Source: Actinobacteria bacterium IMCC25003
GTDB taxonomy: Bacteria > Actinomycetota > Actinomycetes > Nanopelagicales > Nanopelagicaceae
Direction: 5' to 3'
Length of the DNA: 64,000 nucleotides
Assembly: GCA_002284855.1 (NCBI GenBank)
Contig: CP015603.1
Coordinates: 1,240,001 to 1,304,000 of the forward strand
In this document: positions 17,190 to 26,545 of the stretch, one piece after another
How positions within the stretch are numbered: position 1 is the stretch's first letter
Layout: each line of letters starts with the position of its first letter
Position numbers and translations under genes: made by a program
Notes under the pieces: model-generated
Told to the model about the DNA's origin: nothing
The model's input: the letters and a program-made list of their open reading frames with translations, nothing else
Database searches by the model: none

Positions 17190-17195
17190 TATTAT
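17190..17195 (+). promoter_or_regulatory. Putative -10 element of the inositol operon promoter
   Basis: TATTAT about 26 nt before the iolA ATG, giving a short leader with the ribosome binding site. The -35 region is poor (TTATAA at 18 bp), so control by a regulator is likely. It overlaps the divergent terC promoter region. Confidence 0.45.
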
Positions 17196-17220
17196 GCGAG
17201 TCTGTCCACGAGGGGGAAAT

Positions 17221-18711
17221 ATGAGCGCAGTTGTTAATCACTGGATCAATGGAACTGAGTACGTCAGCAAGTCAGGTCGCACCGCACCTGTCTATGACCC
17301 AGCTCTTGGTACAGAGACAAAGCGCGTAGCCCTTGCAAACCAAGTTGAAATTGATGCTGCAATCAAGGCAGCTAAAGATGCATTCCCTGCATGGCGCGAT
17401 GAATCACTCGCTAAGCGTCAACAAATAATCTTTACCTTCCGCGAACTTCTCAACGCTCGCAAAGGCGAGCTTGCAGAGATCATTACAAGTGAACACGGAA
17501 AAGTCCTTTCCGATGCACTCGGTGAAATTACTCGCGGCCAAGAAGTAGTCGAATTCGCGACAGGTATCCCGCACCTTCTCAAAGGTTTCTATTCAGAGAA
17601 CGTCTCAACCGGCGTAGATGTCTATACAACTCGCCAACCACTCGGCGTCGTAGGAATTATCAGTCCGTTTAACTTCCCTGCAATGGTTCCGATGTGGTTC
17701 TTCCCGATCGCAATTGCTGCAGGAAATACAGTTGTCATCAAGCCATCTGAAAAAGATCCATCGGCATCGATGTGGGTTGCAAAGCTTTGGAAAGAAGCCG
17801 GTCTTCCTGATGGTGTATTCAACGTTCTCAATGGCGATAAGGAATCTGTAGACGGACTTCTCAACAGCCCTGATGTCGAGTCAATCTCCTTCGTAGGTTC
17901 AACTCCGATTGCACAATATATTTACGAGAGCGCTTCCCGCACAGGTAAGCGTGTTCAGGCGCTCGGCGGGGCAAAGAATCACATGTTGGTTCTCCCTGAT
18001 GCAGATCTCGAACTCGTTGCAGACTCTGCCATCAATGCTGGCTTCGGAAGCGCGGGCGAGCGCTGCATGGCAATCTCAGTTGTTGTTGCAGTTGAACCTG
18101 TTGCAGATAAGTTGATTCCAAAGATTGTCGAGCGCATGGGCAAGCTCCGCACCGGCGACGGTCGTCGTGGCTGCGATATGGGTCCACTCGTTACTCGCGA
18201 ACACCGCGATAAAGTCGCGTCATATATCGATATCGCCGAAAAAGATGGTGCCACAGTTGTTGTCGATGGCCGTAACCCTCAGGTTGATGGCGATGCCAAT
18301 GGCTTCTGGCTTGCACCTACTTTGGTCGACAAGGTACCTACAACTTCTAAGGTCTACACCGAAGAAATCTTCGGACCAGTTCTCTCTATCGTGCGCGTAA
18401 AGAGCTACGACGAAGGTGTTGCACTGATTAATAGCGGTGCATTCGGAAACGGAACAGCGATCTTTACCAACGATGGTGGCGCAGCTCGCCGCTTCCAGAA
18501 TGAAATTCAGGTAGGTATGGTCGGAATCAACGTTCCTATCCCGGTACCTGTTGCTTACTACTCCTTCGGTGGTTGGAAGCAATCACTCTTCGGCGATACA
18601 AAAGCACACGGCGTAGAAGGAGTTCACTTCTTCACTCGTGGCAAGGCAATAACTTCTCGCTGGCTTGATCCAAGTCACGGTGGAATTAACCTCGGTTTCC
18701 CACAGAACTAA
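17221..18711 (+). CDS. iolA: Methylmalonate-/malonate-semialdehyde dehydrogenase (CoA-acylating)
   Basis: Last step of inositol catabolism: malonate semialdehyde + CoA + NAD+ to acetyl-CoA + CO2 (also methylmalonate semialdehyde to propionyl-CoA). The 496-residue length matches MmsA/IolA. Seen: SPFNFPAMVPMWFFP, FVGSTPIAQYIY, GGAKNHMLVLPDAD and the catalytic Cys in GSAGERCMAIS near residue 285. The ATG at 17221 is used because AGGGGG lies just upstream; an in-frame ATG at 17194 overlaps the -10 element. First gene of the operon, 20 bp before iolB. Confidence 0.95.
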   Translation: MSAVVNHWINGTEYVSKSGRTAPVYDPALGTETKRVALANQVEIDAAIKAAKDAFPAWRDESLAKRQQIIFTFRELLNARKGELAEIITSEHGKVLSDALGEITRGQEVVEFATGIPHLLKGFYSENVSTGVDVYTTRQPLGVVGIISPFNFPAMVPMWFFPIAIAAGNTVVIKPSEKDPSASMWVAKLWKEAGLPDGVFNVLNGDKESVDGLLNSPDVESISFVGSTPIAQYIYESASRTGKRVQALGGAKNHMLVLPDADLELVADSAINAGFGSAGERCMAISVVVAVEPVADKLIPKIVERMGKLRTGDGRRGCDMGPLVTREHRDKVASYIDIAEKDGATVVVDGRNPQVDGDANGFWLAPTLVDKVPTTSKVYTEEIFGPVLSIVRVKSYDEGVALINSGAFGNGTAIFTNDGGAARRFQNEIQVGMVGINVPIPVPVAYYSFGGWKQSLFGDTKAHGVEGVHFFTRGKAITSRWLDPSHGGINLGFPQN

Positions 18712-18730
18712 TCGACACAGAACTAAGTAG

Positions 18731-19639
18731 ATGACCTCTGCAAGCAAGTGGTATTTCAAGAACTCTGAGTTAGCTCAGGGCGATTGGGATGTTCACATTG
18801 ACCCACAGAGCCCACCCGTCGCAGGTTGGAAGTTCACAGGTTTACGTGTCGGAACTTTGACTCCTGGAAAATCCCTCTCACTTCCAAATGATTCCAATGA
18901 ACGCATCATCTTTGCTCTCGAAGGTGAAGTGTTTCTTGTTGAATATGAAAACAAAGGGTTGATTGCTAGCCAAGTTCTGCGCGGTCGTACATCTGTATTC
19001 CACGGACCTTCTGATTTCATTTACCTACCTATTAATACATCAGCAACCATCTCTGGAAACGGTCGAATCGCAGTGGGTGAAACACCTGCAACCATTTCGA
19101 AGCCTGTGCAATTCACACCTAAAGAGAAGGTTTCGGTCACCATGCGTGGCGCAGGCCGTGAAACTCGCCAAGTACATAATTTGGGAATGCCCGATACTCT
19201 CGATGCGGATCGCATGATTGTCTGCGAAGTGATTGTCCCCGCTGGCAACTGGTCTGGCTCGCCTTCTCATAAGCACGATGCATATATCGCTGGCAAAGAA
19301 TCAAACCTTGAAGAGATTTACTACTTTGAAAGCGCAGTCACTCGTGGGGCGCCGGCACCGACCACATCTTCTCCCTTTGGTTATTTCCGCGGAACTACTG
19401 CAGATTCGCGTCCTTATGATGTTAATGAAGAGATTCATTCCGGTGATGTTGCCCTGGTTCCTTACGGTTGGCACGGACCAGCTGCAGCTGGACCTGGTTA
19501 TGACTTGTATTTCTTCAATGTCATGGCAGGCCCAGATCCTGAACGAGCATGGAATGCAACAGATCATCCAGACCAAGCTTGGATTCGCGACACTTGGCAA
19601 TCACAGCAAACAGACCCAAGATTGCCCTACGGAGCTTAG
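18731..19639 (+). CDS. iolB: 5-deoxy-glucuronate isomerase
   Basis: Converts 5-deoxy-D-glucuronate to 5-dehydro-2-deoxy-D-gluconate. It is a 302-residue bicupin with the metal-binding segment SPSHKHD, then NLEEIYYFES and the C-terminal VPYGWHGPAAAGPGYDLYFFNVMAGP typical of IolB. It lies between iolA and iolD. No strong Shine-Dalgarno is seen; the start context AACTAAGTAG-ATG is the same as that of the carrier gene at 25652, so both may depend on translation from the preceding gene. Confidence 0.95.
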   Translation: MTSASKWYFKNSELAQGDWDVHIDPQSPPVAGWKFTGLRVGTLTPGKSLSLPNDSNERIIFALEGEVFLVEYENKGLIASQVLRGRTSVFHGPSDFIYLPINTSATISGNGRIAVGETPATISKPVQFTPKEKVSVTMRGAGRETRQVHNLGMPDTLDADRMIVCEVIVPAGNWSGSPSHKHDAYIAGKESNLEEIYYFESAVTRGAPAPTTSSPFGYFRGTTADSRPYDVNEEIHSGDVALVPYGWHGPAAAGPGYDLYFFNVMAGPDPERAWNATDHPDQAWIRDTWQSQQTDPRLPYGA

Positions 19640-19651
19640 GAAGGAGTTGAT

Positions 19652-21565
19652 ATGGCCACACGCAGAATGACAGTTAGCCAAGCAATTGTTGAATTCCTTT
19701 CACACCAATACACAGTCGATGGCAATCACCGCGAACGCACAATTCAAGGCGTCTTTGGAATCTTTGGCCACGGCAATGTTGCCGGAATCGGTCAAGCGTT
19801 AAAGCAGCTCTCTGTAGAAGATCCTTCTCGCATGCCGTACTTCCAAGCTCGTAATGAACAAGCGATGGTTCATGAATCAACTGCATTTGCTCGCATGAAG
19901 CGTCGCCGCGCCACATTTGCATGCGCTGCATCCGTGGGTCCAGGAGCCACAAATATGTTGACGGGTGCTGCAGTAGCAACAACAAACCGTTTACCTGTCC
20001 TGCTTTTTCCTTCAGATACCTTTGCAAATCGATCATCTGATCCAGTGCTTCAACAACTTGAAATGCCACATGATGCATCACTTTCAGTTAACGATGCCTT
20101 TAAACCACTCTCTCGTTTCTTTGATCGGGTACAGCGTCCAGAGCAGGTATTTTCTGCCCTTCTTAGCGCAATGCGTGTGCTGACAGATCCATCAGAAACA
20201 GGTGCAGTCACCATCGCTCTACCTGAAGATGTGCAGGCTGAAGTCATTGATGTTCCTGAAGAATTCTTGGCAGATCGTGAATGGCATATCCGCCGTCCGC
20301 GAGCAGAAGTAGCTCTCCTTGCAGACGTTGCGCGAGTTATAGCGAATGCCAAGCGACCTTTCATCGTTGCAGGTGGCGGAGTCATCTACTCCGATGCCCA
20401 CGATGCGCTTCAGAAATTTGTAGAGCAGACCAAGATTCCTGTTGGCACATCGCAAGCCGGCGTTGGTTCACTTAATTGGGATCACCCACAACTTCTCGGT
20501 TCTGCCGGAGCAACCGGAACAACTGCAGCCAATAGAGCAGCAAAAGAAGCTGATGTTGTCATTGGTATTGGTACTCGCTATAGCGATTTCACAACCTCGA
20601 GCCGCACTGCTTTCCAGAACCCTGATGTTCGCTTTATCAATATCAATATCGCCTCCTTCGATGCCTACAAGCATGGAAGTGCGTTTCCTGTCGTGGCAGA
20701 TGCCCGCGAAACGCTTACAGAGCTGACCACTTTACTTGCTGGAGTTGCTACTACTTCTGAATATCAGAAGAAGTACTCAAGCGATAAAGCTGAGTGGGAT
20801 GCAATAGTTGATGCAGCATTTATAGATCAAAAGCTTGCGCTTCCAAGCCAGACCGAAATCATTCACGCAGTGCAATCAGCATCCGATGCCACTGACACCG
20901 TTATCTGTGCAGCAGGTTCCTTACCCGGAGATCTTCACAAACTCTGGCGCGTGCGTTCACCGCTGGGTTACCACGTTGAGTATGCATTCTCATGCATGGG
21001 TTATGAAATCGCCGCAGGACTTGGCGCAGCCCGTGCTGGTGCAACACCTATCGTGATGGTCGGTGATGGTTCTTACCTCATGATGCATACAGAGATTGTT
21101 TCAGCAGTTGCCGAGGGTCTCAAAGTAATCATCGTTCTTATTCAGAACCATGGCTTTGCATCAATCGGCCATCTCTCTGAAGATATTGGCTCGCAACGCT
21201 TTGGAACTCAGTACCGCTTCAAAGACCAAGCGGGCAATAACTTTGAGAACGGTGAAAAACTTCCGGTAGATCTTGCAGCTAATGCAGCAAGTCTTGGAAT
21301 AAATGTCATCGATATCAAACAGACACCATCAGCGATTGCAGATCTACATGAGGCAGTGAAGACCGCCAAGAAATCTGCAACATCAACTCTTATCCATATC
21401 AATAGCGATCCATTGCTCTACTCACCTGGCGGAGAAGGTTGGTGGGATGTGCCTATCGCTCCCGTTTCAAACCTCAAGAGCACCCAAGATTCATATGCGC
21501 AGTACTCAGAAGAAATTAAGAAGCAACGTCCGTTGCTTGGCAACGGCATAGAAGATAAGAAATAG
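19652..21565 (+). CDS. iolD: 3D-(3,5/4)-trihydroxycyclohexane-1,2-dione hydrolase
   Basis: Thiamine-diphosphate enzyme that opens the diketo-inositol ring to 5-deoxy-glucuronate. The 637 residues are typical. Seen: GVFGIFGHGNVAGIGQAL near the N-terminus, RNEQAMVHESTAFAR with the catalytic Glu, central GTRYSDFT and the ThDP/Mg motif GDGSYLMM in the C-terminal third. An AGGAG ribosome site precedes the ATG. Confidence 0.96.
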   Translation: MATRRMTVSQAIVEFLSHQYTVDGNHRERTIQGVFGIFGHGNVAGIGQALKQLSVEDPSRMPYFQARNEQAMVHESTAFARMKRRRATFACAASVGPGATNMLTGAAVATTNRLPVLLFPSDTFANRSSDPVLQQLEMPHDASLSVNDAFKPLSRFFDRVQRPEQVFSALLSAMRVLTDPSETGAVTIALPEDVQAEVIDVPEEFLADREWHIRRPRAEVALLADVARVIANAKRPFIVAGGGVIYSDAHDALQKFVEQTKIPVGTSQAGVGSLNWDHPQLLGSAGATGTTAANRAAKEADVVIGIGTRYSDFTTSSRTAFQNPDVRFININIASFDAYKHGSAFPVVADARETLTELTTLLAGVATTSEYQKKYSSDKAEWDAIVDAAFIDQKLALPSQTEIIHAVQSASDATDTVICAAGSLPGDLHKLWRVRSPLGYHVEYAFSCMGYEIAAGLGAARAGATPIVMVGDGSYLMMHTEIVSAVAEGLKVIIVLIQNHGFASIGHLSEDIGSQRFGTQYRFKDQAGNNFENGEKLPVDLAANAASLGINVIDIKQTPSAIADLHEAVKTAKKSATSTLIHINSDPLLYSPGGEGWWDVPIAPVSNLKSTQDSYAQYSEEIKKQRPLLGNGIEDKK

Positions 21566-21575
21566 GAGCCTCTCC

Positions 21576-22490
21576 ATGACACAGCAAATCCGCGTTGGTA
21601 CAGCACCTGACTCATGGGGTGTGTGGTTTCCGAATGAACCTCACCAGGTGCCTTGGGATCGCTTTCTCGATGAAGTAGTCGAAGCTGGATATCACTGGAT
21701 CGAACTTGGCCCATATGGATATCTCCCTACCGATCCCAAGCAACTTGAAGATGAACTTGGCAAACGTAACCTCAAGATGACGGCAGGAACAGTCTTTACC
21801 GGATTCCATAAAGAAGATGAGAGCCAATGGCAGCGCGCATGGGATCAAGCACTGGCAGTTGCAAATCTGGTTTCAAAGTTAGGTGTCGAACACCTCGTTG
21901 TCATCCCTGATCTATGGCGCGATGACAAGACTGGCCAGGCACGTGAGTCACGCACACTTACCAATGAGCAGTGGAAGCGACTCGCTGCAGGACATAACAA
22001 ACTTGGTAAAGCACTTCTCGAGGAGTTCGGAATCCATCAACAATTCCACTCCCATGCTGATAGCCATATCGGTACCTATCAAGAAGTAGAGCGCTATTTA
22101 CAAGAGACGGATCCGCTCTATTCAAATCTCTGTCTCGATACCGGTCACTTTGCTTATTACCTTGGCGATAACCTCAAGATGATGAATGCCTATCCAGAGC
22201 GCATTGGTTACTTGCACCTTAAGCAGGTACATCCTGACATCTTGGCTGAAACTTTGAAGAATGACGTTCCATTTGGAGATGCAGTTGCTAAGGGCGTCAT
22301 GACAGAGCCTGGTTTTGAAGGAGTTCCAAAGTTTGCACCAATCATCGAACGTGCACTTGAGATCAATCCTGAAATCTTCGCAATCATCGAGCAAGATATG
22401 TATGGCTGCCCAGTCGATATGCCATTCCCTATTGCACAACGCACCCGCGAACATATCCTTGCGGCCACACGCGCTGCTCGAGTGAAGTAG
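21576..22490 (+). CDS. iolE: Inosose dehydratase
   Basis: Dehydrates 2-keto-myo-inositol (scyllo-inosose) to the diketo intermediate used by IolD. A 304-residue TIM-barrel protein of the xylose-isomerase-like family. Seen: VGTAPDSWGVWFPNE at the N-terminus, WIELGPYGYLPTDP, HSHADSHIGTY and LDTGHFAYY with metal ligands. AGGAG lies upstream of the ATG. It ends 4 bp before the transaldolase-like gene. Confidence 0.95.
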   Translation: MTQQIRVGTAPDSWGVWFPNEPHQVPWDRFLDEVVEAGYHWIELGPYGYLPTDPKQLEDELGKRNLKMTAGTVFTGFHKEDESQWQRAWDQALAVANLVSKLGVEHLVVIPDLWRDDKTGQARESRTLTNEQWKRLAAGHNKLGKALLEEFGIHQQFHSHADSHIGTYQEVERYLQETDPLYSNLCLDTGHFAYYLGDNLKMMNAYPERIGYLHLKQVHPDILAETLKNDVPFGDAVAKGVMTEPGFEGVPKFAPIIERALEINPEIFAIIEQDMYGCPVDMPFPIAQRTREHILAATRAARVK

Positions 22491-22494
22491 AGAA

Positions 22495-23571
22495 ATGACC
22501 CAATCACCTTTTCTCTACATGAAAGAGAACTGCAAAACAGTTCTCTGGAATGACTCAGCTGATCCGAAAGAGCTCGCAGATGCACTTACGTGGGGAATTG
22601 TTGGAGCAACCTGTAACCCAGTCATTGCACTGACTGCCCTTAAGGCAGATACTCCACATTGGGTTGAGCGTATTAAGGAATACTCCAAGAGCCATCCAAC
22701 GGCTACCGAAGATGAAATCGGTTGGGCCATGGTTAAGGAACTCTCTATCAATGCCGCCAAGCTTCTTGAAGGTGAGTTTGAAAAGTACAACGGCCGTAAT
22801 GGACGACTCTCCATTCAGACCGATCCACGCCTCTACCGCAATCCGAAAGCACTTGCGGCCCAAGCGATTGAATTCTCACAGCTTGCCAAGAACATCATTG
22901 TCAAAATTCCCGTAACGAGCGAAGCAATCTCTGCATTTGAAGAAGCGACCTACCAAGGTGTCAGCCTCAATGCCACTGTCTCTTTCTCTGTTGCACAAAC
23001 CATTGCAGTTGCTGAAGCAATCGAGCGCGGACTCAAGCGTCGCGAAGCAGAAGGTCTTGATATCTCTCAGATGGGACCTGTCTGCACCATCATGGTTGGT
23101 CGCGTTGATGACTGGGTAAAGGTAGGCGCAGAAAAGGTGGGCGCCAAAGTAGATCCAGAAATCCTCGAGTGGGCCGGTGTTGCAGTCTTTAGGCATGCGC
23201 ACAAGATCTATGCCGAGCGCGGATATCGCACCCGTTTATTGTCGGCTGCTTTCCGCAATCACATGCACTGGTCTGAAATTCTTGGTGGAGACTCAGTGAT
23301 CTCTCCCCCATATGCGTGGCAGGTCAAGATCAATGAGTTAGGGATTACTCCCAACCTCAATAGCGTCAATGAACCTATTGCCCCACACATTCTTGATCCA
23401 CTTCTCGAGAATTTCCCTGAGTTTAGAAAGATGTATGACGTAGACGGCCTCAAAGTTGAAGAGTTCACTCATTTTGGTGGAACCCTTCGTACACTTCGTG
23501 GGTTCTTGCAATCAGTCAATGATCTTGAATCCTTTGTCCGCGATGTCACCGTTCCCAACCCAGATAAGTAA
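22495..23571 (+). CDS. Transaldolase-family protein of the inositol operon
   Basis: A 358-residue class I (Schiff-base) aldolase of the transaldolase family. Seen: Asp20 in VLWNDSAD (equivalent to TalB D17), ATCNPVIAL (38-46, TNP-like) and Lys137 in IIVKIPV (TalB K132). LSIQTDPR puts Gln108 where TalB has Glu96, as in fructose-6-phosphate aldolase, and CTIMVGRVDDW has Met at the TalB Phe178 position. It sits where iolC or iolJ would be expected, and neither of those is in the window. It may therefore split 5-dehydro-2-deoxygluconate to malonate semialdehyde plus dihydroxyacetone, or pass the three-carbon unit to glyceraldehyde 3-phosphate. That role is inference; an ordinary transaldolase is the alternative. 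Confidence 0.75.
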   Translation: MTQSPFLYMKENCKTVLWNDSADPKELADALTWGIVGATCNPVIALTALKADTPHWVERIKEYSKSHPTATEDEIGWAMVKELSINAAKLLEGEFEKYNGRNGRLSIQTDPRLYRNPKALAAQAIEFSQLAKNIIVKIPVTSEAISAFEEATYQGVSLNATVSFSVAQTIAVAEAIERGLKRREAEGLDISQMGPVCTIMVGRVDDWVKVGAEKVGAKVDPEILEWAGVAVFRHAHKIYAERGYRTRLLSAAFRNHMHWSEILGGDSVISPPYAWQVKINELGITPNLNSVNEPIAPHILDPLLENFPEFRKMYDVDGLKVEEFTHFGGTLRTLRGFLQSVNDLESFVRDVTVPNPDK

Positions 23572-23580
23572 GGTGAAGCT

Positions 23581-24603
23581 ATGACCACTCTTCCAAAGCC
23601 ACATGTATTTTCTGCGGCAGATTCCAAGCCACTTCGTTGGGGAATCTTCGGTGCAGGCTGGATTTCCGATGCGATGGTTAAGACTGCGCAGCTCAATTCA
23701 ACACAGCAATTTGTTGCAATCGCTTCTCGCACTCCCGGTAAGGCAGAGGCATTTGCTCAGAAGTGGAACCTCGAGTCATTCCATAACTCTTATGAAGAGT
23801 TAGCTGCCCGCGACGATATCGATGCAATTTATATCGGCACTCTGCCATCTGATCGTCTAGAAGTTGCACTTGTTGCCATCAACGCTGGCAAACATGTACT
23901 TATCGAAAAGCCCATCACTATGGATTATGCAGAAGCGGAACAGATTTACGCAGCAGCAAAGGCGAAGAAAGTTCTGGCGATGGAAGCAATGTGGACTCGC
24001 TTCTTGCCACAGATGGATATTGCCCGGCAACTTGTTGCTGATGGAGCTCTTGGAGATGTCGAACTCGTTGTCTCTAACTTCTGCCAGAACAATCTTGCCG
24101 TCACTCGTCTCTTTACTTTAGGGGGCGGAAATCCCATTATCGATATGGGCATCTATCCAGCGGCACTTTCGCAACAATTCTTAGGCAACCCAACTGAGAT
24201 TCATGCCTTTGGAAAGTTACATCCCAACGATATTGATGAAGAGACCCACGCCTTTATGCGCTTTGCTAACGGATCTCGTTCTAACTTCGTTCTCTCTGCA
24301 CGCACCACTCTTCCGCATTGGGCTGGCGTCTCTGGCTCAAAGGGTGCGATCACCTTTGGAACTCCGTGGTTTACGCCATCTTCCATCACATTCCATGAGT
24401 CCACATTTAATGGAGCTCAGACCACATGGGTCGACGACCTCGGAATTCCTGAACATTTAGGTCTTATCTACCAAGTACATGCCTTTGCTCAATATGTAGA
24501 ACAAGGTCTGCTCGAAGGAACGCTCTATACCCACCACGATTCACTCTCCAATATCAAAACTGTCCTTGAGATTGGCAATCTCATCGGAACTCGCTACAAA
24601 TAA
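23581..24603 (+). CDS. Gfo/Idh/MocA-family oxidoreductase
   Basis: A 340-residue NAD(P)-dependent oxidoreductase: Rossmann motif WGIFGAGWISDAM (20-32), IYIGTLPSDRLE, the family EKP motif in HVLIEKPITM and a C-terminal sheet domain with GGGNPIIDMGIYPAAL. It resembles the glucose-fructose oxidoreductase/dihydrodiol dehydrogenase branch more than IolG. In this operon it may oxidise another inositol isomer or a methyl-inositol, or epimerise inososes; the substrate is unknown. AAGGTGAAG precedes the ATG. Confidence 0.85.
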   Translation: MTTLPKPHVFSAADSKPLRWGIFGAGWISDAMVKTAQLNSTQQFVAIASRTPGKAEAFAQKWNLESFHNSYEELAARDDIDAIYIGTLPSDRLEVALVAINAGKHVLIEKPITMDYAEAEQIYAAAKAKKVLAMEAMWTRFLPQMDIARQLVADGALGDVELVVSNFCQNNLAVTRLFTLGGGNPIIDMGIYPAALSQQFLGNPTEIHAFGKLHPNDIDEETHAFMRFANGSRSNFVLSARTTLPHWAGVSGSKGAITFGTPWFTPSSITFHESTFNGAQTTWVDDLGIPEHLGLIYQVHAFAQYVEQGLLEGTLYTHHDSLSNIKTVLEIGNLIGTRYK

Positions 24604-24627
24604 TTTATCCATCCACGTATTAAGGAA

Positions 24628-24633
24628 TAGGCT
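24628..24633 (+). promoter_or_regulatory. Putative internal leaderless promoter before iolG
   Basis: TAGGCT, 6 nt before the iolG ATG at 24640, with TTATCC 17 bp further upstream. It lies in the widest gap (36 bp) of the operon. Confidence 0.5.
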
Positions 24634-24639
24634 CGCGCA

Positions 24640-25647
24640 ATGACTCAGAAAATCAGAATCGCAATCATCGGTGCCGGTCGTATCGGCTATGTCCATGCAG
24701 GAAGCGTCAATGACACTCCGGAACTCGAGCTTGTTTATGTGGTTGATCCCTTTGAAGAGAATGCCAAGAAGGTAACTGCTGCATTCGGCGGCAAAGTTTC
24801 AAACGATCCCTCTGCCGTTATTGCCTCTGGTGAAATCGATGCAGTCATTATCGGGTCGCCAACTGCAACACATATCCCGCTCTTGCGTGAATGTATTGCC
24901 AATGGAGTACATGCGCTCTGCGAAAAGCCACTAGATCTTGATATCAAAAACGTTGAAGCATTCCGCGCAGAAGCCAATGCTGCAAAGATCAACATCACTC
25001 TTGGCTTTAACCGCCGACAAGATCCTCAGTACCTTGCTCTTAAGGCCAAGGTTGTCGATGGAACTATCGGAACTATCGAGCAGGTAATCCTTACAAGCCG
25101 CGACCCAGGTCCTGCGCCACAGGCTTACATCGCAGTCTCTGGTGGAATCTTCCGCGATATGACTATCCATGATTTTGATATGGCTCGTAACTTCGTTCCC
25201 AATATTGTTGAAGTAACTGCATTCGGAGCCAATAGCTTCTGCGATTACATTAAGGAAGAGGGCGACTTCGATAACGTCAGCGTTGCCATGAGAGGTGCAA
25301 ATAACGAGCTCATCACAATCGTGAACTCACGCCACGCTGCCTTTGGTTACGACCAGCGCGCAGAAATCTTTGGCGATAAGGGAATGCTCCAAATTAGCAA
25401 TCTCTCTGACTCAACCGTAAAGTCATTTACCAAGGATGCAACTACTGCAGGAGAGCCATTTATGGACTTCTTCCTCGAGCGCTATGCCGATTCATATCGC
25501 AATGAACTCAAGCTCTTTATTGAAGGAATCAAGACCGGCAAGGTCCTTGGATCTACTTATGACGATGGCCGCGCTGCACTGATTCTCGCTGATGCAGCAC
25601 ACGAATCTGCGCACACTGGTAAATCAGTCAGAGTTAATCTCAACTAA
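24640..25647 (+). CDS. iolG: Inositol 2-dehydrogenase
   Basis: First step of the pathway: oxidises myo-inositol to 2-keto-myo-inositol with NAD+. The 335-residue Gfo/Idh/MocA protein has IAIIGAGRIGYVHAGS (7-22), VVDPFEEN with Asp selecting NAD+, CEKPLDLD and the IolG hallmark GGIFRDMTIHDFDMAR carrying the catalytic Asp/His pair. It lies late in the operon and may have its own leaderless transcript. Confidence 0.92.
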   Translation: MTQKIRIAIIGAGRIGYVHAGSVNDTPELELVYVVDPFEENAKKVTAAFGGKVSNDPSAVIASGEIDAVIIGSPTATHIPLLRECIANGVHALCEKPLDLDIKNVEAFRAEANAAKINITLGFNRRQDPQYLALKAKVVDGTIGTIEQVILTSRDPGPAPQAYIAVSGGIFRDMTIHDFDMARNFVPNIVEVTAFGANSFCDYIKEEGDFDNVSVAMRGANNELITIVNSRHAAFGYDQRAEIFGDKGMLQISNLSDSTVKSFTKDATTAGEPFMDFFLERYADSYRNELKLFIEGIKTGKVLGSTYDDGRAALILADAAHESAHTGKSVRVNLN

Positions 25648-25651
25648 GTAG

Positions 25652-26545
25652 ATGGCCGCTTCTCTTACCAAAACTCAACGAAGCGGCCTCTTCTTCGCCT
25701 TCCTTGGAATCTTTGCATTTTCACTCTCGCTTCCCTTTACTAAGTTAGCTCTGAAGAGTTTTGATCCCCTATTTACCGCCTTTGCGCGACCCGTTATTGC
25801 ATCCTTCCTTGCGATTCCTTTGATGTTCATCGCCAAGGTTCCAAAACTCCCTCGTGATCTCTGGCGACCAACTGCATTTACGGCAGCAGGTGCAGTATTT
25901 GGTTGGCCGATTTTGATCGCACTGGCTCTTCAAAGAACTACATCCGCGCACGTCTCGGTAATAGCCGCTGTGATGCCCTTAGTTACAGCAATCATCGCCG
26001 TGATTAAGAATCGAAAGCATCCAGGAGCATCATTTTGGGTCGCCTCAACTCTTGGCACAGTACTTCTCGTTACTTTTTCAATTACCCGAGGGGGAAGTTC
26101 TAACTCTGATCTGCTCACCGACCTCATCATTCTCGGTGCAGTTATCGCATCTTCTTACTGTTATGTGGAAGGTGCGGCACTGACTTCTCATATGCCAGGT
26201 TGGCAGGTTATTTCTTGGGTCGTTGTGGTGAGTCTTCCTATCGCTCTTCCTGCGGCTGCATTTGTCTTTGCTCGTACAAACTCTTCCTACGATTTCCATG
26301 GAGATGCACTCTTCGGTTTACTCGCAATCGGTCTTTCTTCAATGTATCTGGGTTTCTTTGCTTGGTATCGCGGACTCCGCGACTTTGGTGTTGCTCACGG
26401 CTCTCAAGTACAGCAACTTCAGGCAATCATGACTTTGGGTTGGTCCGCGCTTTTGCTCGGTGAAACCGTCACTCTCACCATGGTTCTCTCCGCAGTTGGA
26501 ATTATTCTCTGCGTGCTCTGGGCTATTTCCAACGTAAACAAGTAA
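25652..26545 (+). CDS. EamA/DMT-family transporter
   Basis: A 297-residue drug/metabolite-transporter protein with about ten hydrophobic helices in two EamA halves; GLFFAFLGIFAFSLSLPFTKLAL opens the first and SSMYLGFFAWYRGLRDFG marks the second. Members export or import amino acids, sugars or nucleosides. It begins 4 bp after iolG, so a role in moving inositol or a pathway product is possible, although such carriers are not the usual inositol importers. Confidence 0.82.
   Translation: MAASLTKTQRSGLFFAFLGIFAFSLSLPFTKLALKSFDPLFTAFARPVIASFLAIPLMFIAKVPKLPRDLWRPTAFTAAGAVFGWPILIALALQRTTSAHVSVIAAVMPLVTAIIAVIKNRKHPGASFWVASTLGTVLLVTFSITRGGSSNSDLLTDLIILGAVIASSYCYVEGAALTSHMPGWQVISWVVVVSLPIALPAAAFVFARTNSSYDFHGDALFGLLAIGLSSMYLGFFAWYRGLRDFGVAHGSQVQQLQAIMTLGWSALLLGETVTLTMVLSAVGIILCVLWAISNVNK

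Follow-up and report, generated by a model that had tools for sequence, protein, structure and literature searches.

Judged from gene content and gene order, a divergent transaldolase-family protein (here called TAL) very probably takes the place of both the kinase IolC and the aldolase IolJ in inositol breakdown. Its gene lies in a DNA stretch of 64,000 nucleotides which we refer to as the window (contig 1, positions 1240001-1304000, of genome G000, a single-contig genome of 1,353,947 bases that is 99.99% complete). Positions 17194-25647 of the window hold, on the + strand, a compact operon with the order iolA-iolB-iolD-iolE-TAL-Gfo/Idh-iolG. Together with the EamA gene behind it there are eight genes, all on the + strand and separated by gaps of 4-36 bases:

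17194..18711, + strand: iolA, (methyl)malonate-semialdehyde dehydrogenase (TIGR01722, 668.6 bits, cut-off 448.5)
18731..19639, + strand: iolB, 5-deoxy-glucuronate isomerase (TIGR04378, 205.7 bits, cut-off 205)
19652..21565, + strand: iolD, trihydroxycyclohexane-dione hydrolase (TIGR04377, 825.2 bits, cut-off 715)
21576..22490, + strand: iolE-like gene, inosose dehydratase family (TIGR04379, 132.9 bits, well under the cut-off of 290; PF01261)
22495..23571, + strand: TAL, divergent transaldolase/FSA-family protein of 358 aa (PF00923, 128.6 bits, cut-off 27)
23581..24603, + strand: second Gfo/Idh/MocA oxidoreductase (PF01408, PF22725; below every NCBIfam cut-off)
24640..25647, + strand: iolG, inositol 2-dehydrogenase (TIGR04380, 350.5 bits, 4.5 bits short of the cut-off of 355)
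25652..26545, + strand: EamA-family transporter (PF00892), 4 bases after iolG

The order, coordinates and lengths which a sequence-only reading had given for these genes, with a TAL of 358 residues directly after iolE, are correct. Its naming of iolA, B, D, E and G stands for A, B and D, which are over their cut-offs, whereas iolG falls just under and iolE well under. No recognised inositol transporter is among the eight operon genes; the EamA gene adjoins iolG also in some close relatives of this genome. The nearest relatives come from actinobacterial metagenome assemblies and Candidatus Planktophila, both freshwater organisms. Five metagenome assemblies titled Bifidobacterium breve (L009, L011, L037, L042, L051) carry a TAL that shares 66-90% identity with the window protein; these titles look wrong.

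The same reading had found neither a PfkB-type kinase nor a class II aldolase in the window, and indeed the three PF00294 matches and the one PF01116 match of the genome all lie outside of it. Against the IolC model (cut-off 300) the three PfkB (PF00294) proteins reach 88, 51 and 76 bits; over-cut-off matches in the class score 319 to 394 among the matches listed. One PfkB gene (L001) follows a gene read by eye as pseudouridine-5'-phosphate glycosidase. The single class II aldolase (PF01116), a protein of 348 aa, is encoded next to a gene read by eye as purA-like, which is presumably the setting of a glycolytic class II aldolase. Cgl0159 (PF22649), which in actinobacteria adjoins IolC or is fused to it and is a candidate for the IolJ equivalent of this group, was not found in the window genome. 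Profile searches of the complete genome thus led us to reject the possibility that iolC (over the cut-off) or Cgl0159 is encoded at some other place. The lack seen in the window holds genome-wide for IolC and, as far as Cgl0159 and class II aldolases were searched, for a recognised IolJ.

TAL itself exceeds the cut-off of the PF00923 superfamily (128.6 against 27 bits) and stays far under all matched NCBIfam models for transaldolase or fructose-6-phosphate aldolase (FSA), with 76.4 bits for TIGR00876 (cut-off 233.75) and 58.1 bits for TIGR00874 (cut-off 396.2), both describing canonical transaldolases, and 37.3 bits for the FSA model TIGR00875 (cut-off 245.95). By profile search it is the sole PF00923 gene in the complete window genome. 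An AlphaFold2 model (pLDDT 94.8, pTM 0.92) matches long transaldolases with Z values from 28 to 40, among them 3clm (Z 39.8, rmsd 2.0 over 322) and 3r5e (Z 38.6), compared to about 22 for SF-TAL and about 21 for FSA. As modelled, the overall fold of TAL is of the canonical transaldolase type.

For the analysis of single residues, 79 non-redundant members of the TAL clade (from 119 collected) were aligned with E. coli TalB as reference. The Schiff-base Lys137 (TalB Lys132) is present in all 79, and Lys137, Asn41, Asn159, Thr161, Arg203 and Arg254 are invariant, the two arginines being the counterparts of TalB Arg181 and Arg228. At the position of TalB Glu96 all 79 sequences have Gln (Gln108), as has E. 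coli FsaA (Gln59), and the canonical actinobacterial transaldolases have Glu (9/9). The FSA-like Gln at this site, proposed from the window alone, was therefore borne out by the alignment, and Glu was not found in the clade. Met (Met200) occupies the position of TalB Phe178 in 79 of 79 members; FsaA is gapped there in the alignment, and we take its Tyr131 to be the FSA counterpart. Gln108 hints at an aldolase because FSA has Gln there, but the partner Tyr is absent and Met200 fits neither enzyme. The gene of G250 was flagged with one TGA; its reading frame is nonetheless open over query residues 15-356.

With the canonical actinobacterial transaldolase (TIGR00876; C. glutamicum 3r5e) TAL has in common the fold, a similar length and the active-site Lys, Asn and Thr together with Arg203. 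It differs by an identity of only ~30%, by Gln108 for Glu, Met200 for Phe and its iol context, and at the site of Arg254 the nine canonical actinobacterial sequences usually have another residue. The position of the natural Gln108 is also the one engineered in E. coli TalB E96Q and E96Q/F178Y (PDB 4rz5, 4rz6). These are, however, laboratory variants, and the TAL clade pairs Gln with Met, not with Tyr.

To relate TAL to the inositol genes, iolD, TAL and iolC were each searched for in one set of 393 genomes from the class. Membership of the TAL clade was defined by at least 53% identity (the next match has 30%), and iolC was called by best E-value against the 300-bit cut-off. Over-cut-off iolD was found in 168 genomes, over-cut-off iolC in 155 and TAL in 21. 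All 21 TAL genomes carry an over-cut-off iolD (p = 8e-9 for the 393 genomes). At first sight, TAL genes that stand alone in members of the window's family argue against an inositol role; this objection was dropped, since every TAL genome of the class has iolD. Within the 168 iolD genomes, TAL occurs in 11 of 17 without iolC versus 10 of 151 with iolC (p = 6e-8, pooled and with kinship ignored). Three further genomes have iolC without iolD, and one of the 155 is unplaced, probably the borderline G059, G197 or G257; when all three of these are counted as iolC-positive, the contrast becomes 11/14 versus 10/154 (p = 2e-9). The 11 TAL genomes lacking iolC are G000, G021, G065, G329, G370, G377, G231, G189, G110, G357 and G266. 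As to the other six iolD genomes without iolC, G059, G197 and G257 are slightly below the iolC cut-off, G152 and G234 possess Cgl0159 together with a kinase that stays below the cut-off, and no other iol genes flank the iolD of G123 within the stretch read.

The pooled value is weakened because 9 of the 11 genomes with TAL and without iolC are kin of the window, belonging to its own family. Within this family alone, the contrast is 9/10 versus 4/8 (p = 0.12). Outside of it, TAL is present in 2/7 iolC-less iolD genomes versus 6/143 by the strict call (p = 0.046), and in 2/5 versus 6/145 if the borderline kinases are counted as iolC (p = 0.023). We lean most on an IolD gene tree, calculated by a quick method for 74 of 75 chosen rows (G263, with no iolD in the stretch, was left out) and including 17 of the 21 TAL genomes of the class. 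At least 12 changes of the TAL state and 13 of the iolC state fall on this tree. Among 11 independent pairs differing in TAL, iolC changed in the opposite direction in 7.4 on average, in the same direction in 0.0 (one in a few pairings), and was unchanged in 3.6 (sign test, median p = 0.016, range 0.004 to 0.125). These independent pairs suggest that TAL and iolC were probably exchanged for each other several separate times.

The exchange is not strict. TAL coexists with an over-cut-off iolC in 10 of the 21 TAL genomes of the class, which counts against a strict replacement, and with both iolC and Cgl0159 in nine. At locus L063 (G182) an IolC-Cgl0159 fusion adjoins iolB-iolD-TAL, a counter-example to strict exclusion, and in G038 TAL stands alone and iolC, Cgl0159 and iolB lie in a row elsewhere. 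In such genomes TAL may form a parallel branch, or may have a role in the pentose phosphate pathway only, as in G038. Cgl0159, searched for in 80 selected genomes, was detected in none of the 11 TAL genomes without iolC, in 9 of 10 TAL genomes with iolC and, among the iolC genomes without TAL that were examined, in 20 of 24. Taken by itself, its absence is not diagnostic, because the four exceptions among these 24 include two in the window's family (2/4 there).

Linkage of TAL to inositol genes without iolC, which the sequence-only reading had suggested looking for in related genomes, recurs in other families and in another phylum. In 151 genomes of an Acidobacteria-type class (the class of G412, whose locus L082 is titled Acidobacteriaceae), we found over-cut-off iolD in 28, TAL in 10 (at least 55% identity to the L082 protein; next match 38%) and iolC in 13. 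The 28 iolD genomes divide into nine with TAL and no iolC, none with both, nine with iolC and no TAL, and ten with neither (p = 0.026). One of the ten TAL genomes has no iolD, and G523, which has iolC, holds only a TAL relative of 36%. TAL adjoins iolB, iolD, iolE or iolG in eight of the nine genomes possessing TAL and iolD (for instance, iolG-iolA-iolD-TAL-iolB in G543, locus L200). At L082 the flanking IolG (469 bits), IolD (921) and IolB (341) are well over their cut-offs and IolE (182) is below. Another 26 TAL genomes, reached through their TAL loci and with titles from actinobacteria, Chloroflexi, Acidobacteria and others, hold iolD in 18 and over-cut-off iolC in six cases; among the eight without iolD, G414 has an iolD in two frames at the TAL locus. 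At the level of gene content the proposed replacement of iolC/iolJ by TAL is thus supported.

Possible other endings of the pathway were also seen. Two iolD-iolE-iolG runs of the Acidobacteria-type class (L188:9537-14262 and L189:6190-10879; iolD 48%) include an HpcH/HpaI aldolase gene (by Pfam in L188, by eye in L189); iolB is absent from the stretch, and their genomes have neither an over-cut-off iolC nor TAL. They might represent a different pathway ending or act on another substrate. At L207:2008-4673, in the Chloroflexi-titled G407, a Cgl0159-like gene (BLAST) adjoins iolD; iolC is not over the cut-off in this genome, and TAL is at a separate locus (L077).

Neighbouring genes were also scored at 80 TAL loci within 8 kb around TAL, high-GC loci being read by simple ORF calling. 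At 25 loci iolB or iolD is found within this distance, and only two of these 25 have iolC as well. An IolA-type gene is present at 28 of the 80, including clusters without iolD, and 45 have neither iolB/iolD nor an IolA-type gene in the 8 kb, many of these having short flanks but eight having 10 kb on both sides. Six loci (L052, L059, L060, L061, L064, L074) combine TAL with varying sets of UPF0261 (Tm-1-like), PEP_hydrolase and BKACE genes, identified by Pfam in L061 and L064 and by eye in the rest; record titles name Blastococcus, Modestobacter, Geodermatophilaceae and Nocardioidaceae. An IolA-like gene (59-60%) occurs at L052, L059, L061 and L074, and iolD was not found in the five genomes tested (L052, L059, L061, L064, L074). 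Possibly, these clusters encode another keto-acid sugar route that gives a semialdehyde. A neighbour resembling the enzyme for the proposed product, kept without iolD, fits a wider role of TAL. L210:6449-9493 points to yet another subfamily in a setting of its own: a 30% TAL relative there neighbours genes for a Gfo/Idh protein and an HpcH/HpaI aldolase.

How could TAL replace a kinase and an aldolase? IolG, IolE, IolD and IolB would, as usual, oxidise, dehydrate, ring-open and isomerise inositol to 5-dehydro-2-deoxygluconate. Read from C6, this compound is a ketose with a CH2OH group and with C4/C3 configured as C3/C4 of fructose (Fischer projection). Lys137 of TAL would form a Schiff base with C5 of the unphosphorylated 5-dehydro-2-deoxygluconate, and cleavage between C3 and C4 would give malonate semialdehyde, the substrate of IolA. 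The enzyme-bound dihydroxyacetone unit would, as in the sulfo-TAL pathway, most likely pass to glyceraldehyde 3-phosphate and yield fructose 6-phosphate; certain lineages may instead release free dihydroxyacetone. Substrate, products and acceptor are here inferred.

The same logic would apply as in the sulfo-TAL pathway with its 6-deoxy-6-sulfofructose transaldolase (SqvA / BmSF-TAL). According to the available part of a description of that pathway (PMC12890257), a Schiff-base transaldolase cleaves an unphosphorylated acid-tailed ketose and transfers the dihydroxyacetone unit to glyceraldehyde 3-phosphate, and the acid-tailed aldehyde goes to a dehydrogenase or reductase. However, SF-TAL is a short decameric enzyme of 216-226 residues (Z about 22, aligned over 197-199 residues), whereas TAL, at 358 residues, is closest to the long transaldolases. 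The proposed TAL substrate has a carboxylate tail and would give malonate semialdehyde. The place between IolB and IolA that TAL would occupy is otherwise held by IolC plus IolJ, by an IolC-DUF2090 fusion or, putatively, by IolC plus Cgl0159. DUF2090 was proposed as an IolJ equivalent and was fused to IolC in each case found by Price et al. 2022, in the available part of that study (PMC9007349). The IolC-based forms phosphorylate first and cleave the 6-phosphate, in contrast to the window genome with its lack of an IolC kinase and of Cgl0159.

In the window genome TAL, as the only transaldolase, probably has a second role in the pentose phosphate pathway. Among the 22 genomes of its genus (g1), nine have TAL, eleven the canonical transaldolase and two neither, never both. 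This mutual exclusion suggests that TAL can do the work of a transaldolase. The two without any transaldolase match (G118 and G154) are single-contig genomes, hence the need for a transaldolase in this genus is not absolute. The furthest-reaching form of this explanation, to which we give slightly less than even odds, is a kinase-free route in which TAL, with a natural Gln/Met active site, converts 5-dehydro-2-deoxygluconate and glyceraldehyde 3-phosphate into malonate semialdehyde and fructose 6-phosphate. In this form TAL would have displaced IolC and its aldolase repeatedly, across at least two phyla, and would be the sole pentose phosphate transaldolase in the freshwater genus of the window.

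Alternatively, TAL could be an aldolase that releases free dihydroxyacetone and malonate semialdehyde, with a dihydroxyacetone kinase acting after the cleavage, so that the kinase step would be moved, not lost. This is possible but, to our judgement, on the doubtful side. The uniform Gln at the Glu96 position (79/79), as in FsaA, favours it, and so does the statement in the available part of PMC13259622 (citing Stellmacher et al.) that swapping the residues which hold the catalytic water interconverts the activities of FSA and TalB. Furthermore, L084:1-3663 holds a gene for Dak1, one matching DhaL and one for a DhaM-like PTS protein of the EIIA-HPr-EI type, next to iolE-iolD-iolB and TAL and with the two groups convergent; yet L084 is the only one of 133 stretches searched (window included) with DhaK/DhaL homologues. 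Met200 instead of Tyr at the Phe178 position, the retention of Arg203 and Arg254 and the mutual exclusion with the canonical enzyme in g1 speak against it. Could TAL then be a mere pentose phosphate transaldolase that is carried in the operon, the inositol step being done by an unrecognised kinase and aldolase? The window genome holds no second PF00923 gene, TAL stands in for the canonical transaldolase in 9 of the 22 genus members, and the separate arrangement in G038 would fit. But a second transaldolase match exists in 10 of the 21 TAL genomes of the class (at 27-31% in G110, G231, G250 and G357 among the matches listed), and in G357 it lies right after a transketolase-like gene (by eye). 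Such a role was rejected as the full account on the ground of these second matches. It also fails to explain why TAL goes with iolD, why iolC and Cgl0159 are missing together and why the linkage recurs in another phylum, and it appears improbable to us.

Still less credible, and very unlikely in our view, is that the IolC and IolJ steps are performed with low specificity by a generic sugar kinase (L001, L002 or L003) together with L004, the class II aldolase. Three PfkB proteins do exist in the genome, and IolJ of B. subtilis is a class II aldolase, like L004. The B. subtilis enzyme is the reference for the aldolase step in the available part of Price et al. 2022 (PMC9007349). Nevertheless, the IolC scores of 51, 76 and 88 bits compare poorly with the 319 to 394 of the class matches listed, and the genomic positions of L001, behind a putative pseudouridine-5'-phosphate glycosidase gene, and of the class II gene, beside the purA-like one, speak against this reading. 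A last reading is compatible with our preferred transaldolase route: TAL may belong to a wider family that gives malonate semialdehyde, or a homologue of it, from several keto-sugar acids, inositol being one source. We consider this well conceivable, if somewhat short of an even call. The UPF0261/PEP_hydrolase/BKACE clusters with TAL speak for it, four of them with an IolA-like gene and five genomes tested without iolD.

In the open-access literature searched, no earlier description was found in which an inositol step is assigned to a transaldolase. As far as the available parts of the papers go, a figure legend on Clavibacter mentions a transaldolase and inositol genes with no link between them (PMC5358740), a proteome lists transaldolase and IolC separately (PMC7736159), talB is placed in the pentose phosphate pathway (PMC12130570), and no inositol step is given to a transaldolase in PMC12008989. 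A survey of 24,812 bacterial species, again in its available part, found the capacity for inositol use in 29.8%; iolC is among the four core genes that it uses, and it puts a missing fourth gene down to incomplete genomes, assembly errors or frameshifts (PMC9430895).

The TAL route, as far as sequences can tell, appears to be an undescribed variant of a well-studied inositol pathway in some lake and soil bacteria. If this is true, the sulfo-TAL pathway would have a counterpart for a carboxylate, and the E96Q change known from TalB engineering would have a natural example. Moreover, a part of the cases in that survey which lack a core gene may then represent a real pathway, including relatives of the freshwater actinobacteria and soil lineages of the Acidobacteria type.
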